Origin: Helicobacteraceae bacterium
GTDB taxonomy: Bacteria > Campylobacterota > Campylobacteria > Campylobacterales > Sulfurimonadaceae
Assembly (NCBI GenBank): GCA_015488775.1
Contig: WFNF01000081.1
Span: 1 to 63,029, forward strand
Reading direction: 5' to 3'
Length of the DNA: 63,029 nucleotides
The position numbers and the translations under genes were made by a program. Below the pieces are notes generated by a model. The model was not told the origin of the DNA. It saw only the letters and a program-made list of their open reading frames with translations, and searched no databases. Within the stretch, counting starts at the first letter, position 1; each line of letters begins with the position of its first letter. This document shows, piece after piece, positions 4,157 through 9,998 of the stretch.

Positions 4157-6221
4157 AAATCTTTATTTATTTTTAGGAAGTGTAGCTGTACTTCTTATAG
4201 GCATCTATTTATACTATTCAAAAGCTGAACCATTTAAGTCTTACTCTTTAAGGTTTAGTGATTCTTTTTACTCTTTGCAAGATAAAAAGCCATCTAAAGA
4301 TATCGTCTTTATCGCAGTTGATGAGCCAAGCGTAAATATGTTTGGTAGATGGCCTTGGAATAGAGATATTATTGCTAAGGGTTTAGATCAATTAGTTGAA
4401 AGTGATGTTGTTTTAATGGATATGATATTTTCTGAGGAGACAAACTCTTTTTCTGATCAGAAACTTGCTAGCTCTTTGAGCTCTCTTCCAGCTAGTGTAT
4501 GTGGATTTTTTCTTAGAAAAAAGGCTACTCAAAATATCTCTGTTTATCAAGAGGAGATGTTAGTTGATTCTGCTTTAGATAGACTTCTTTCACAAAAAAG
4601 TGAACACAATGATAAACAAATTTTTGCTGAAGCCAAATACACAGAGATGAATATTGAGCCTATTTTAGAAGCTTGTAGTATGTCTGGAGCTTTTTCTACT
4701 ATAAGAGATTCTGATCAGCTTTTAAGATCTTACCCTGTTGCATACTTTATAGAAGAATCTAACTCTGCAGAAAAAAGGGAATTACTTTACCCATCTCTTG
4801 CAGTTCAAGCTTTAAGGTTAAAACTAAATGCTGATGTTGAGCGTGTAAGTGATACTCAAGTGAAAATAGATAAATATCTACTAGATCTTGATGAAAAAGG
4901 GTTCGTAAAACTTAACTTTTATAAAAGGGGTGATTATAATCAAATATCATTTGCTGATGTAATAACTAAGAGATATGATAAAAATTATTTTAAAAATAAG
5001 ATAGTAATTTTAGGTATTACAGATATAGGTGCTGGTGATATGAGAGCTACACCTATAGGTGAATTACCTGGGCCATTGTTGCATTATACATTTTTATCTA
5101 ATGTACTTAATGGGCATCTTTTGGTTGAAAGAAGTGATTTAAATATAGTAGCAATTGCATTTTTTGCATTTTTGCCATTTGTTTTGTTGCTTGTATTTAA
5201 ACCATTGTTTATAAGGGCTGTTGTATATTTTATTTCATATTTAGGATTTTATTATCTTATTGAACATCTTTTTATAGATAAATATATCTTGATAGATGGT
5301 TTTCTTCCTTTGCTTAGTTTAATATTAAGTGTTCTTATTTTAGAAGGTTTAGAGTTTATTTATCAAGAGAAAAATTCTAAATTTATTAAAGGAGCTTTTT
5401 CAAATTATCTCAGTAAAGATCTTTTAAATCAACTAGTTAAAGATCCAGATGCCTTAAAGTTAGGTGGTGATAAAAAAGAGTTAAGCATATTGTTTTCAGA
5501 TATACGAGGTTTTACAACTATATCTGAAAAATTAGAGCCTGATGAATTGATTAGATTACTTAACCGTTATTTTACCCCTATGACCGATGCAGTTCTTGAT
5601 AATTATGGAATGTTGGATAAATATATTGGAGATGCGGTAATGGCATTTTTTAATGCCCCAATTAATGTTAAAGATCATGCTGATGCCTCATGTAGGTCTG
5701 CTTTAGTGATGATTGATGCTTTAAATAAACTAAATATTGAGTTAAAAGTGGATGGAATTGATCCAATTTATATAGGTATAGGTATAAATACAGCAGAAGT
5801 TATTGTTGGAAATATGGGATCAAAAAATAGATTTAACTATACAATAGTTGGAGATGGTGTTAACCTTGCATCAAGAGTTGAGGGTTTAACAAAAAATTAT
5901 GGTGTAAATATACTAATAACAGAGTTTACCAAAAATGCTTTAAACTCCACTTTTTTAGTAAGAGAGGTGGAACAGGTTGTTGTTAAGGGTAAGGCTGAAG
6001 CTGTCTTATTGTATGAGTTGTTAGAAAATACAAAAGAAAACAAAAAAATAGTAAAAAGTTTTACTGAAGCTTTAAATGTATATAAAAATGGGGATTTAAA
6101 AAATGCCTTATATCTTTTTAATGTTTTAGTAGATGAATATAATGATAGTGTAAGTTCGTATTTTATTACTTTGATCAATGATGGTAAAAAGTATGGAATT
6201 CATACTATGAAAACAAAGTGA
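4146..6221 (+). CDS. CHASE2-domain class III adenylate cyclase
   Basis: 691 residues: an N-terminal membrane segment (~5-25), an extracytoplasmic CHASE2 sensor (~30-325, with DIVFIAVDEPSVNMFGRWPW and the MIFSEE segment), then three hydrophobic segments (~331-400) and a cytoplasmic class III cyclase domain (~440-620). Metal-binding Asp residues are in FSDIRGFT (~451) and GDAVMAFF (~495). The substrate-specifying Lys in DKYIGD and the Thr in NYTIVGDGVN point to ATP rather than GTP. A TPR-like tail follows. Product: cAMP in response to a periplasmic signal. It overlaps the FecR-domain gene and is followed after seven bases by the HD-GYP gene. Confidence 0.9.
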   Translation: MRFRNLYLFLGSVAVLLIGIYLYYSKAEPFKSYSLRFSDSFYSLQDKKPSKDIVFIAVDEPSVNMFGRWPWNRDIIAKGLDQLVESDVVLMDMIFSEETNSFSDQKLASSLSSLPASVCGFFLRKKATQNISVYQEEMLVDSALDRLLSQKSEHNDKQIFAEAKYTEMNIEPILEACSMSGAFSTIRDSDQLLRSYPVAYFIEESNSAEKRELLYPSLAVQALRLKLNADVERVSDTQVKIDKYLLDLDEKGFVKLNFYKRGDYNQISFADVITKRYDKNYFKNKIVILGITDIGAGDMRATPIGELPGPLLHYTFLSNVLNGHLLVERSDLNIVAIAFFAFLPFVLLLVFKPLFIRAVVYFISYLGFYYLIEHLFIDKYILIDGFLPLLSLILSVLILEGLEFIYQEKNSKFIKGAFSNYLSKDLLNQLVKDPDALKLGGDKKELSILFSDIRGFTTISEKLEPDELIRLLNRYFTPMTDAVLDNYGMLDKYIGDAVMAFFNAPINVKDHADASCRSALVMIDALNKLNIELKVDGIDPIYIGIGINTAEVIVGNMGSKNRFNYTIVGDGVNLASRVEGLTKNYGVNILITEFTKNALNSTFLVREVEQVVVKGKAEAVLLYELLENTKENKKIVKSFTEALNVYKNGDLKNALYLFNVLVDEYNDSVSSYFITLINDGKKYGIHTMKTK

Positions 6222-6228
6222 GTTTATA

Positions 6229-7344
6229 ATGGGTGAAACTTTAAATGCTAGTGAACTTTTAAATCTTATATTTTCTTATATAACAAAAATTTCAGCAACT
6301 AGAAATCATGATGAGATTATTGATATATTAGCAAATATGTCAAGAGAGTTAACGGGGGCTGATAGATGTACTATATGGCTGGTATCTGATGATAAAAAAA
6401 GTTTATGGTCAAAAGTTGCTCATGGCATTGACAATATTGTTATCCCAATTGATACTGGAATAGTTGGCTGTTCAATTGCCCAGAGAGAAAAAATTATAAT
6501 AGATGATGCTTATGATGATGATAGGTTTAATAAAAGCGTAGATTTAAAAACTGGCTATAGAACAAAAAGTATTATGGTTGTTCCTATGCATAATGAAGAT
6601 AATGTGATTATAGGTGCAATTCAAGTTATAAATAAAAATAACGATGGTGTTTTTGATGAAAGAGATTTAGAAAGATTGCTTTTAGCATCAACTTACGCTG
6701 CTGAGTCTATAGAGAGTGCTTTACTTTTGAAAGAGATTGAACAAACTCAAAGTGAACTTATCTTTACTGTGGGTTCTATTGGTGAGTCAAGATCAAAAGA
6801 AACAGGTAATCATGTAAAGCGTGTTGCTGAGTATAGTTACTTACTTGCCATAAAATATGGTTTAAGCAAAGAGGAAGCACTGCTGCTTAAAGAGGCATCT
6901 CCAATGCATGATATTGGTAAAATAGGAATTCCAGATGCTATTATCAATAAACCAGGTAGATTTAATGATGAGGAGAGAAAGATAATGGATACCCATGCTT
7001 TTATTGGGTATAAGATACTAAAAGATTCAACTAGAAGAATTTTAAGATCTGCTGCTATTGTAGCGTATGAACATCATGAAAAATGGGATGGTTCAGGCTA
7101 CCCAAGAGGTCTTAAAGGTGATGAGATACATATATACGGAAGAATAACTGCCTTAGCTGATGTGTTTGATGCTTTAGGTAGCGATAGGGTATATAAGAAG
7201 GCTTGGGAAGATGAAAAAATATTTCAACTGTTTAAAGATGAAAGAGGTAAACACTTTGATCCAAAACTAATAGATATATTTTTTGAGAACCTAGATGACT
7301 TTTTAAATATAAGAAAAAAACATAAAGATGGATACAATGGATAA
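6229..7344 (+). CDS. GAF-HD-GYP protein (putative cyclic di-GMP phosphodiesterase)
   Basis: 371 residues. An N-terminal GAF domain (~20-165; contains ADRCTIWLV and MVVPMHNEDN) is joined to an HD-GYP domain: metal-binding HDIGKIGIP at ~227, MDTHAFIGYKIL, and HHEKWDGSGYPRGL at ~282, with ITALADVFDAL following. The HD and GYP residues are intact, so hydrolysis of cyclic di-GMP is expected. GAF domains of this kind can bind cyclic nucleotides, so crosstalk with the upstream cAMP cyclase is plausible but unproven. Cytoplasmic; no transmembrane segment. Its 3' end overlaps the phosphodiesterase gene by 17 bases. Confidence 0.92.
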   Translation: MGETLNASELLNLIFSYITKISATRNHDEIIDILANMSRELTGADRCTIWLVSDDKKSLWSKVAHGIDNIVIPIDTGIVGCSIAQREKIIIDDAYDDDRFNKSVDLKTGYRTKSIMVVPMHNEDNVIIGAIQVINKNNDGVFDERDLERLLLASTYAAESIESALLLKEIEQTQSELIFTVGSIGESRSKETGNHVKRVAEYSYLLAIKYGLSKEEALLLKEASPMHDIGKIGIPDAIINKPGRFNDEERKIMDTHAFIGYKILKDSTRRILRSAAIVAYEHHEKWDGSGYPRGLKGDEIHIYGRITALADVFDALGSDRVYKKAWEDEKIFQLFKDERGKHFDPKLIDIFFENLDDFLNIRKKHKDGYNG

Positions 7345-8113
7345 TATAAAAATACTTGGTGCATACGGAACTAAAGGTCAGAAAAATGAAACTACTTCGT
7401 TTTTAATATCAAAACATAATGTAATAGATGCAGGAAACCTTTTGAGGTCTTTAGGTGACTTTGCTGGCGAAATAGATGGTATATGGATAACTCATCCACA
7501 TCTTGATCATATAATGGATATAGCATATATTTTAGATAGTTATTTTGCCATAAGACGTAAACCTTTAAAGTTAATGGGTTCAAAGAAAACTTTAGATGCA
7601 GTTAAACAACATTTTTTAAATAATGTAATTTGGCCAGATTTTTCAATGATTAAACTTTTACATACAGATGAGATGAGTGTAGTTTATCAAGAGATTGAAG
7701 CTGGTGTGTTTTATGATTTGGAAGATAACACGCAAATAAAAGCATTTTTAAGTGATCATACTCCAGATTCTTATGGCTATATTGTAAAGAAAAATGATAA
7801 AGCAATCATAATTTCATCAGATACTTACTCTTTAGATAACTTAATTGAAGAGGTAAAAAAAGATGATTGTATAAAATCTATGGTTATAGAATGCTCATTT
7901 CCATCATCAATGGATGAACTTGCACTTGTTTCTAAACACTTAACACCTAAATTAATGTTCGAAAAGTTAAAACCACTAAAAAATAAAGGTATAAAATTGA
8001 ACATAAATCATCTAAAACCACTTTATGAGGAGATTATTGTAAAAGAAATTGATAGCCTCAAAGCCCCTTGGGCGTGCAAAGTACTAAAAGATTTAGAAGA
8101 AATTTCATATTAA
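7328..8113 (+). CDS. Class II cyclic-nucleotide phosphodiesterase-like metallo-hydrolase
   Basis: 261 residues with metallo-beta-lactamase fold features. The zinc motif THPHLDHIMD at ~55 matches the class II cAMP phosphodiesterase signature (HxHLDH) better than the generic MBL HxHxDH. Supporting residues are SDHTPDSYGY, ISSDTYS, and a C-terminal NINHLKP His. A second in-frame ATG lies at 7337 and the exact start is uncertain. Position as last gene of the cyclase operon supports a role in degrading the cAMP made by the cyclase two genes upstream. A generic MBL hydrolase remains possible. No terminator is seen before the tRNA promoter at 8126. Confidence 0.8.
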   Translation: MDTMDNIKILGAYGTKGQKNETTSFLISKHNVIDAGNLLRSLGDFAGEIDGIWITHPHLDHIMDIAYILDSYFAIRRKPLKLMGSKKTLDAVKQHFLNNVIWPDFSMIKLLHTDEMSVVYQEIEAGVFYDLEDNTQIKAFLSDHTPDSYGYIVKKNDKAIIISSDTYSLDNLIEEVKKDDCIKSMVIECSFPSSMDELALVSKHLTPKLMFEKLKPLKNKGIKLNINHLKPLYEEIIVKEIDSLKAPWACKVLKDLEEISY

Positions 8114-8125
8114 TGCAAAAAACCC

Positions 8126-8154
8126 TTGACATTGAAACCGAATTCTATTATAAT
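8126..8154 (+). promoter_or_regulatory. Consensus sigma-70 promoter of the tRNA-tuf operon
   Basis: TTGACA (8126-8131), exactly 17 bases, then TATAAT (8149-8154): a perfect consensus, unlike the -35-less promoters elsewhere in the window. A GC-rich discriminator (TCGGGC) follows, typical of stable-RNA promoters under stringent control. Confidence 0.85.
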
Positions 8155-8171
8155 TCGGGCTCAATTTCGTT

Positions 8172-8248
8172 GCTGGCATAGCTCAGTTGGCTAGAGCAGC
8201 TGATTTGTAATCAGCAGGCCCGGGGTTCAAATCCTCGTGCCAGCACCA
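8172..8248 (+). tRNA. tRNA-Thr(TGT)
   Basis: Full cloverleaf with acceptor GCTGGCA/TGCCAGC, encoded CCA, T-loop TTCAAAT and anticodon loop TTTGTAA giving TGT. First gene of the tRNA-tuf operon. Confidence 0.96.
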
Positions 8249-8291
8249 TTTTGAAAAAGTATTAGAAACAGTGTTAGACCAGAAATCTTGG

Positions 8292-8376
8292 GGTGGGATA
8301 CTCAAGTGGCCAACGAGGGCGGATTGTAAATCCGCTGACTACGTCTTCGAAGGTTCGAATCCTTCTCCCACCACCA
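8292..8376 (+). tRNA. tRNA-Tyr(GTA)
   Basis: Acceptor GGTGGGA/TCCCACC, a long class II variable arm, encoded CCA and anticodon GTA flanked by the GGATT/AATCC stem. Second gene of the cluster. Confidence 0.96.
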
Positions 8377-8391
8377 CTTTTGATGATTGAT

Positions 8392-8467
<76 letters not shown>

Positions 8468-8615
8468 TTTAATCAAATTCTGGAAGCTGAAGTACAGTAA
8501 TTTAATTTTTATTTCCTTCAACAAATTTTATTTATTTAAGATTGCTTTCACAAAACTAATACACAGAATTAACCATATGATTTTTCAATTATTGTTTACT
8601 AACTAAAATAACCTT

Positions 8616-8691
8616 GCTTCTATAGCTCAGTTGTTAGAGCACTTTCTTGGTAGGGAAGAGGTCATCGGTTAGACTCCGATTAGGAGCACCA
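8616..8691 (+). tRNA. tRNA-Thr(GGT) with U19:A56 instead of G19:C56
   Basis: All four arms pair: acceptor GCTTCTA/TAGGAGC (one G-U), D stem GCTC/GAGC, anticodon stem CTTTC/GGAAG (one G-U), T stem ATCGG/CCGAT; encoded CCA; anticodon GGT. It occupies the conserved place directly before tuf. Unusual points: the D-loop reads G18-T19 where G18-G19 is nearly universal, and the T-loop reads TTAGACT, so position 56 is A instead of C. Together they replace the G19:C56 elbow pair by U19:A56. Position 38 in the anticodon loop is G. The paired change suggests a functional, covarying tRNA rather than random decay. Confidence 0.9.
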
Positions 8692-8758
8692 TTTAGTACG
8701 AATTTTACAAAATTTGTAGTAATTTTAAAAAATAAGCAATAATTGAACAATTATTTGG

Positions 8759-8764
8759 TATAAT
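8759..8764 (+). promoter_or_regulatory. -10 box upstream of tuf
   Basis: TATAAT with TTGAAC about 16 bases upstream, 35 bases before the tuf ATG. It may add tuf transcription to read-through from the tRNA promoter. Confidence 0.5.
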
Positions 8765-8798
8765 TCCATTTATATTTAAAAAAAGTCAGGAGAACACA

Positions 8799-9998
8799 AT
8801 GGCAAAAGAAAAATTTGAACGTAATAAACCACATGTTAATATTGGAACTATAGGTCACGTTGACCATGGTAAAACTACACTAACTGCAGCAATTACAGCT
8901 GTACTTGCAGTAAAAAATGACGCACAGTTCATGGATTACGATATGATTGATAACGCTCCTGAAGAAAGAGAACGTGGTATCACTATTGCAACTTCACACG
9001 TAGAGTACGAAACTGATACTCGTCACTACGCTCATGTTGATTGTCCAGGTCACGCGGATTATGTTAAAAACATGATTACAGGTGCTGCTCAAATGGATGG
9101 TGCTATTCTTGTTGTTTCAGCAGCTGATGGTCCAATGCCACAAACTCGTGAGCATATTCTTCTTTCTAAGCAAGTTGGTGTACCATACATCGTTGTTTTC
9201 ATGAACAAAGAAGATCTTGTTGATGATGAAGAATTACTTGAACTAGTAGAGATGGAAATCCGTGAACTACTTGACATGTATGAATTTCCAGGTGATGATA
9301 CTCCAATTACAACTGGTTCAGCTGTTAAAGCTCTTGATGAAGCTAAAAGTGGAACTCTTGGTGAATGGTCAGATAAGATTATTGCACTTATGGCTACTGT
9401 TGATGAGTATATCCCAGAACCAGAGCGTGAAACTGATAAAGAATTCTTAATGCCAGTTGAAGATGTATTTTCAATCTCTGGTCGTGGTACTGTTGTTACT
9501 GGTAGAATTGAGCGTGGTACTATCAAAGTTGGTGAGCCAGTTGAAATCGTTGGTATCAAGGACACTCAATCAACTACTGTTACAGGTGTTGAGATGTTCC
9601 GTAAAGAGATGGAGCAAGGTGAAGCAGGAGATAACTGTGGTATCTTAATTCGTGGTATTGATAAAGACAATGTTGAGCGTGGACAAGTTCTATGTAAGCC
9701 AGGTACTATCAATCCTCATACAACTTTTGAAGCTGAAATTTATGTACTTTCAAAAGATGAGGGTGGACGTCATACTCCATTCTTCTCAAACTACCGTCCT
9801 CAGTTCTACGTTCGTACAACTGACGTAACTGGTGCTATTACTTTACCAGAAGGTACTGAAATGGTTATGCCTGGTGATAATGTTAAAATTACTGCTGAGC
9901 TAATCGCGCCGATTGCAATGGAAGAGGGAACTCGTTTCGCTATCCGTGAAGGTGGACGTACTGTTGGTGCTGGTGTTGTTGCTAAAATTATTAAGTAA
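8799..9998 (+). CDS. tuf: Elongation factor Tu
   Basis: 399 residues, full length. GTPase motifs are intact: GHVDHGKT (G1), the switch I region [16 protein letters not shown] (G3) and NKED (G4), followed by beta-barrel domains 2 and 3 ending VAKIIK. It delivers aminoacyl-tRNA to the ribosomal A site in a GTP-dependent manner. AGGAGA precedes the ATG. The position after a tRNA-Thr and before rpmG/secE/nusG matches the widespread bacterial tufB arrangement. Codon choice is more GC-rich at third positions than neighbours, as expected for a highly expressed gene. Confidence 0.99.

Follow-up and report, generated by a model that had tools for sequence, protein, structure and literature searches.

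A tRNA-Thr(GGT) gene with a U19:A56 elbow pair and a possible phage-type origin beside tuf in a Helicobacteraceae bacterium

The 19:56 pair of the tRNA elbow is usually treated as nearly invariant, G:C being nearly universal at these positions, yet the tRNA-Thr(GGT) gene that precedes tuf in this Helicobacteraceae bacterium (Sulfurimonadaceae) carries U19:A56. We favour, with moderate confidence, the reading that it specifies a functional elongator tRNA-Thr(GGU), the sole decoder of ACC and ACU detected, whose allele came from a phage-type tRNA and replaced the host allele in place. The gene lies in the window, the whole stretch of 63,029 nucleotides analysed here, which corresponds to contig C81 in a draft assembly of 2.70 Mb (170 contigs, 95% complete, 2.3% contaminated). 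The features of the locus are collected in Table 1.

Table 1. Features at the tRNA-Thr(GGT) locus, in window positions
Feature	Position	Strand	Source
Upstream tRNA cluster Thr(TGT), Tyr(GTA), Gly(TCC), conserved	8172..8467	+	
tRNA-Thr(GGT) gene, 76 nt, CCA encoded, U19:A56 elbow, G38, A73	8616..8691	+	ARAGORN, Rfam
D-loop AGTTGTTA, 8 nt; G18 = 8633, U19 = 8634	8629..8636	+	sequence parse
Anticodon loop TTGGTAG; anticodon GGT; G38 = 8654	8648..8654	+	sequence parse
T-loop TTAGACT; A56 = 8671	8669..8675	+	sequence parse
tuf (EF-Tu), downstream neighbour, conserved	8799..9998	+	

Results

ARAGORN calls tRNA-Thr(ggt) over the full length of the gene, whose segments read GCTTCTA, TA, GCTC, AGTTGTTA, GAGC, A, CTTTC, TTGGTAG and GGAAG in the 5' part, followed by AGGTC, ATCGG, TTAGACT, CCGAT, TAGGAGC, A and CCA. 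In canonical numbering this parse bears out the complementary swap of G19:C56 for U19:A56 that the earlier note had described, as well as the G at position 38; the elbow has lost its G:C pair but is still Watson-Crick. The helices, said there to be intact, align to Rfam RF00005 with no non-standard stem pair marked, and the covariance check proposed in the same place gives 62.1 bits against a gathering score of 29 for a model that does not require G19:C56, that is, the paired cloverleaf above threshold by which an elongator tRNA is recognised. Around the swapped pair G18, U54, U55 and A58 are retained and position 57 is G, which preserves G18:U55, U54:A58 and R57. The elbow observation is thus confirmed as real. 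We consider the pair to be beyond chance or a sequencing slip, because the two changes are complementary, because further departures from the relatives' sequences accompany them and because the same set is present in independent phage contigs.

The gene order Thr-Tyr-Gly-Thr-tuf is kept across the family, which upholds the conserved place before tuf that had been claimed for this gene. The spacers on either side can be aligned with those of relatives, the difference being confined to the gene body, and since both spacers align the locus is native. The window gene is therefore like the canonical tRNA-Thr(GGT) of this cluster in the family and order in its locus, anticodon, gene order, flanks and anticodon-arm core, whereas the canonical genes differ from it in their D-loop, elbow, position 38 and usually position 73. 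When the same positions were compared across the family and order, each of the 30 distinct host Thr(GGT) sequences proved canonical, with a 7-nt D-loop, G18 G19, C56 and A38; the 8-nt D-loop and G38 occur in none of them. U73 is present in 29 of the 30 and A73 in one, and the family member L085 combines A73 with a CTTTC stem. It is conceivable that a phage tRNA was joined to a host contig during assembly or binning, as the fragmented and slightly contaminated draft would allow. However, both flanks agree with what the family has here and such a chimera would require two joins, each falling precisely on an edge of the gene, making an artefact the least credible of the explanations considered.

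The spacers themselves contain conserved elements. A near-perfect 15-nt inverted repeat, TTCAATTATTGTTTA / TAAGCAATAATTGAA, lies on either side of the tRNA-Thr gene (8584-8598 and 8733-8747), is kept in many relatives and has a similar form in several of the loci L032-L060; as it brackets the gene, base pairing between the precursor's leader and trailer is possible. Directly 3' of tRNA-Gly, at 8480-8495, an element CTGGAAGCTGAAGTAC, often CTGGGAGCTG, is conserved across the family and order (spacers L032-L080).

The draft genome yields 37 matches to the tRNA model, of which just two are Thr tRNAs, Thr(TGT) at 8172 and Thr(GGT) at 8616. With a relative's normal Thr(GGT) as query, one copy is found in each complete genome of the same family tested, and the query's single match in the bacterium's own draft genome is a tRNA-Val; the second tRNA-Thr(GGT) that the earlier note had wanted sought was thus not found in this 95%-complete assembly. 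A hidden copy outside the assembly is unlikely, if still conceivable, since some expected tRNAs, including those for Cys and Ala, are absent from it. ACT is the commonest Thr codon (407 of 840 in window ORFs, 29 of 36 in tuf), and the gene should therefore be needed; we infer that it is expressed and decodes ACU and ACC. The genome also holds a second, divergent tRNA-Glu(TTC) (G000 contig C115:47255-47327, locus L066), which has its lowest tRNA score, 42.5 bits. The cell-wall tRNA-Gly of staphylococci has altered D- and T-loops, and the window gene might likewise be decaying or specialised and no longer work in general translation. Its elbow and position 38 are indeed off consensus, but every stem pairs, the elbow changes compensate one another, the gene encodes its CCA end, synteny is preserved and the assembly offers no other Thr(GGT) for so common a codon, all of which makes such a loss of function very improbable.

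Three viral contigs (L234, L239 and L242) encode a tRNA-Thr(GGT) with the same D-loop, U19, A56, G57, G38 and A73. The combination of an 8-nt D-loop with U19, A56, G38 and A73, which defines phage-type tRNA-Thr(GGT), is found in the window gene. Like it, the three phage tRNAs are 76 nt long and have a T-loop TTAGANT; unlike it are their acceptor and T-stem, overall identity being 62-64 of 76 bases. The T-stem ATCGG of the window gene matches viral and not host Thr(GGT) sequences. G38 with a normal elbow is seen in two viral Thr(GGT), L265 and L266, and one jumbo-phage contig is among the cases of this kind. By these features the window gene resembles phage tRNA-Thr(GGT) more than the Thr(GGT) of the host family, a resemblance that was absent from the earlier reading. 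In a full-length tree the window gene and the three phage tRNAs are joined at 99/94. With the loops and position 38 removed this grouping is not recovered and the nearest sequence is the viral L273; outside the loops and acceptor, L273 is identical at 42 of 43 positions, L266 and L289 at 41 and the best host at 39.

The phage of L239, which encodes a tail-fibre protein, probably infects the host family, because its tRNA-Asn, together with a few flanking bases, is 100% identical to tRNA-Asn genes in several genera of that family. A host for L242 and L239 was sought through their proteins in a phage collection and was not found, and the best-matching sequenced phage and plasmid records that were opened have Thr tRNAs with a normal elbow. 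On L242, positions 5668-8787 encode the large subunit of a phage ribonucleotide reductase (1039 aa), apparently split by insertions that resemble inteins.

Within the phylum, the U19:A56 pattern with a GCTC/GAGC D-stem was found in one of 397 genomes, the bacterium's own. In a broad collection of genome contigs a stricter first pattern gave zero matches and a slightly wider one at least 117 stretches; among the matches listed, most are Saccharibacteria tRNA-Gly(GCC/CCC), with DPANN tRNA-Met, one Deianiraea tRNA-Thr(TGT) and a small number of others. The loci L109-L225 include many such Saccharibacteria tRNA-Gly(GCC) and (CCC) genes and DPANN tRNA-Met genes, and in a sample of the Saccharibacteria class the pattern is present in 42 of 147 genomes. 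The tRNA-Gly genes share with the window gene the elbow swap and the loop sequences TTGTTA and TTAGA, but they are another isoacceptor, lack G38 and belong to an unrelated phylum, and their U19:A56 is probably independent of that in the window. Viral contigs gave 39 matches to the pattern. In the ARAGORN-checked viral set the 19/56 combinations number 35 for U-A, 34 for U-C (some of which may be D-loops in another register), 6 for G-A and at least 137 for G-C. The two positions covary in this viral set, with an odds ratio of at least about 23 (23.5, a lower bound), although the sequences are related and a p-value is not to be taken literally. Across the genes surveyed, U19:A56 is a recurrent, covarying alternative to G19:C56 of which the window gene is one of many natural cases; its recurrence in Saccharibacteria tRNA-Gly, DPANN tRNA-Met and phage tRNAs suggests that a Watson-Crick U:A elbow pair is tolerated. 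A literature search for the exact term 'U19-A56' returned no paper.

Discussion

How the native locus came to hold this allele can be approached from its resemblances. In the favoured scenario of a phage-type origin, the donor would be a phage-type tRNA-Thr(GGT) of phages infecting the host bacterial family, and recombination within the gene or at its edges would have exchanged the host allele for it at the native locus. A common origin of the elbow swap in the window and in the three phage tRNAs is plausible. It is not proven, because its support comes from loop positions while stem positions alone give none, and the swap could be convergent, since Saccharibacteria tRNA-Gly acquired these loop sequences independently. 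Nor is the direction of transfer, from phage to host, fixed by the comparison. It is possible, though we think it doubtful, that the host gene changed in its own lineage, by D-loop expansion, G19U with C56A, A38G and U73A, and that phages of the family later acquired it from this lineage or a sister one, or arrived at it on their own. The native locus and flanks, the repeated emergence of TTGTTA and TTAGA, the A73 and CTTTC stem already present in L085 and the failure of stem positions to tie the window gene to the three phage tRNAs are all consistent with such a history. However, G38 and the 8-nt D-loop are found in 0/30 hosts but in several diverse viral Thr(GGT), one of them with a normal elbow, and the ATCGG T-stem again points to viral sequences. 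A phage-type origin therefore remains the reading that we favour.

Known tRNA structures place the 19:56 pair beside R57, where it closes the elbow stack (PMC7912444). A Watson-Crick U:A pair should keep this stack, and partners that depend on it, such as RNase P and the ribosome, should still work, while enzymes for which C56 itself is a recognition base may be less efficient. TrmA and TruB are both encoded in the genome. TrmA prefers C56, and m5U54 could therefore be reduced in tRNA-Thr(GGU). Perhaps U32 and G38 pair, narrowing the anticodon loop, which might tune decoding. Judged from its sequence, a tRNA-Thr(GGU) with this compensated elbow probably works.

Phage tRNAs with an altered anticodon loop have been proposed to escape a tRNA-cleaving nuclease (PMC10264068), in a paper that makes no mention of the D-loop, T-loop or elbow. 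By analogy, a similar escape of tRNA-Thr(GGU) is conceivable. One tRNase family, PF13166 (PrrC/RloC type), was searched for in the genome, and the only match stayed below threshold (20.3 bits against a cut-off of 36). A further possibility, which we consider unlikely, is that an essential host tRNA gave way to a phage-borne tRNA-Thr(GGU) whose rewired elbow and G38 protect Thr decoding from a tRNA-cleaving defence or toxin; if this were true, host and phage would have a nuclease-resistant tRNA in common.

Among the genomes searched, a tRNA-Thr(GGT) with U19:A56 is new to its lineage. With it as the sole detected tRNA for ACU and ACC, the genome is a natural experiment for telling those partners, among RNase P, TrmA, TruB and the ribosome, that read the elbow bases from those that need only the stack. 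A phage-type tRNA may also have taken over the place of a host tRNA here, and it is as such a possible replacement, rather than as the change in decoding suggested earlier, that the gene holds the greater interest.
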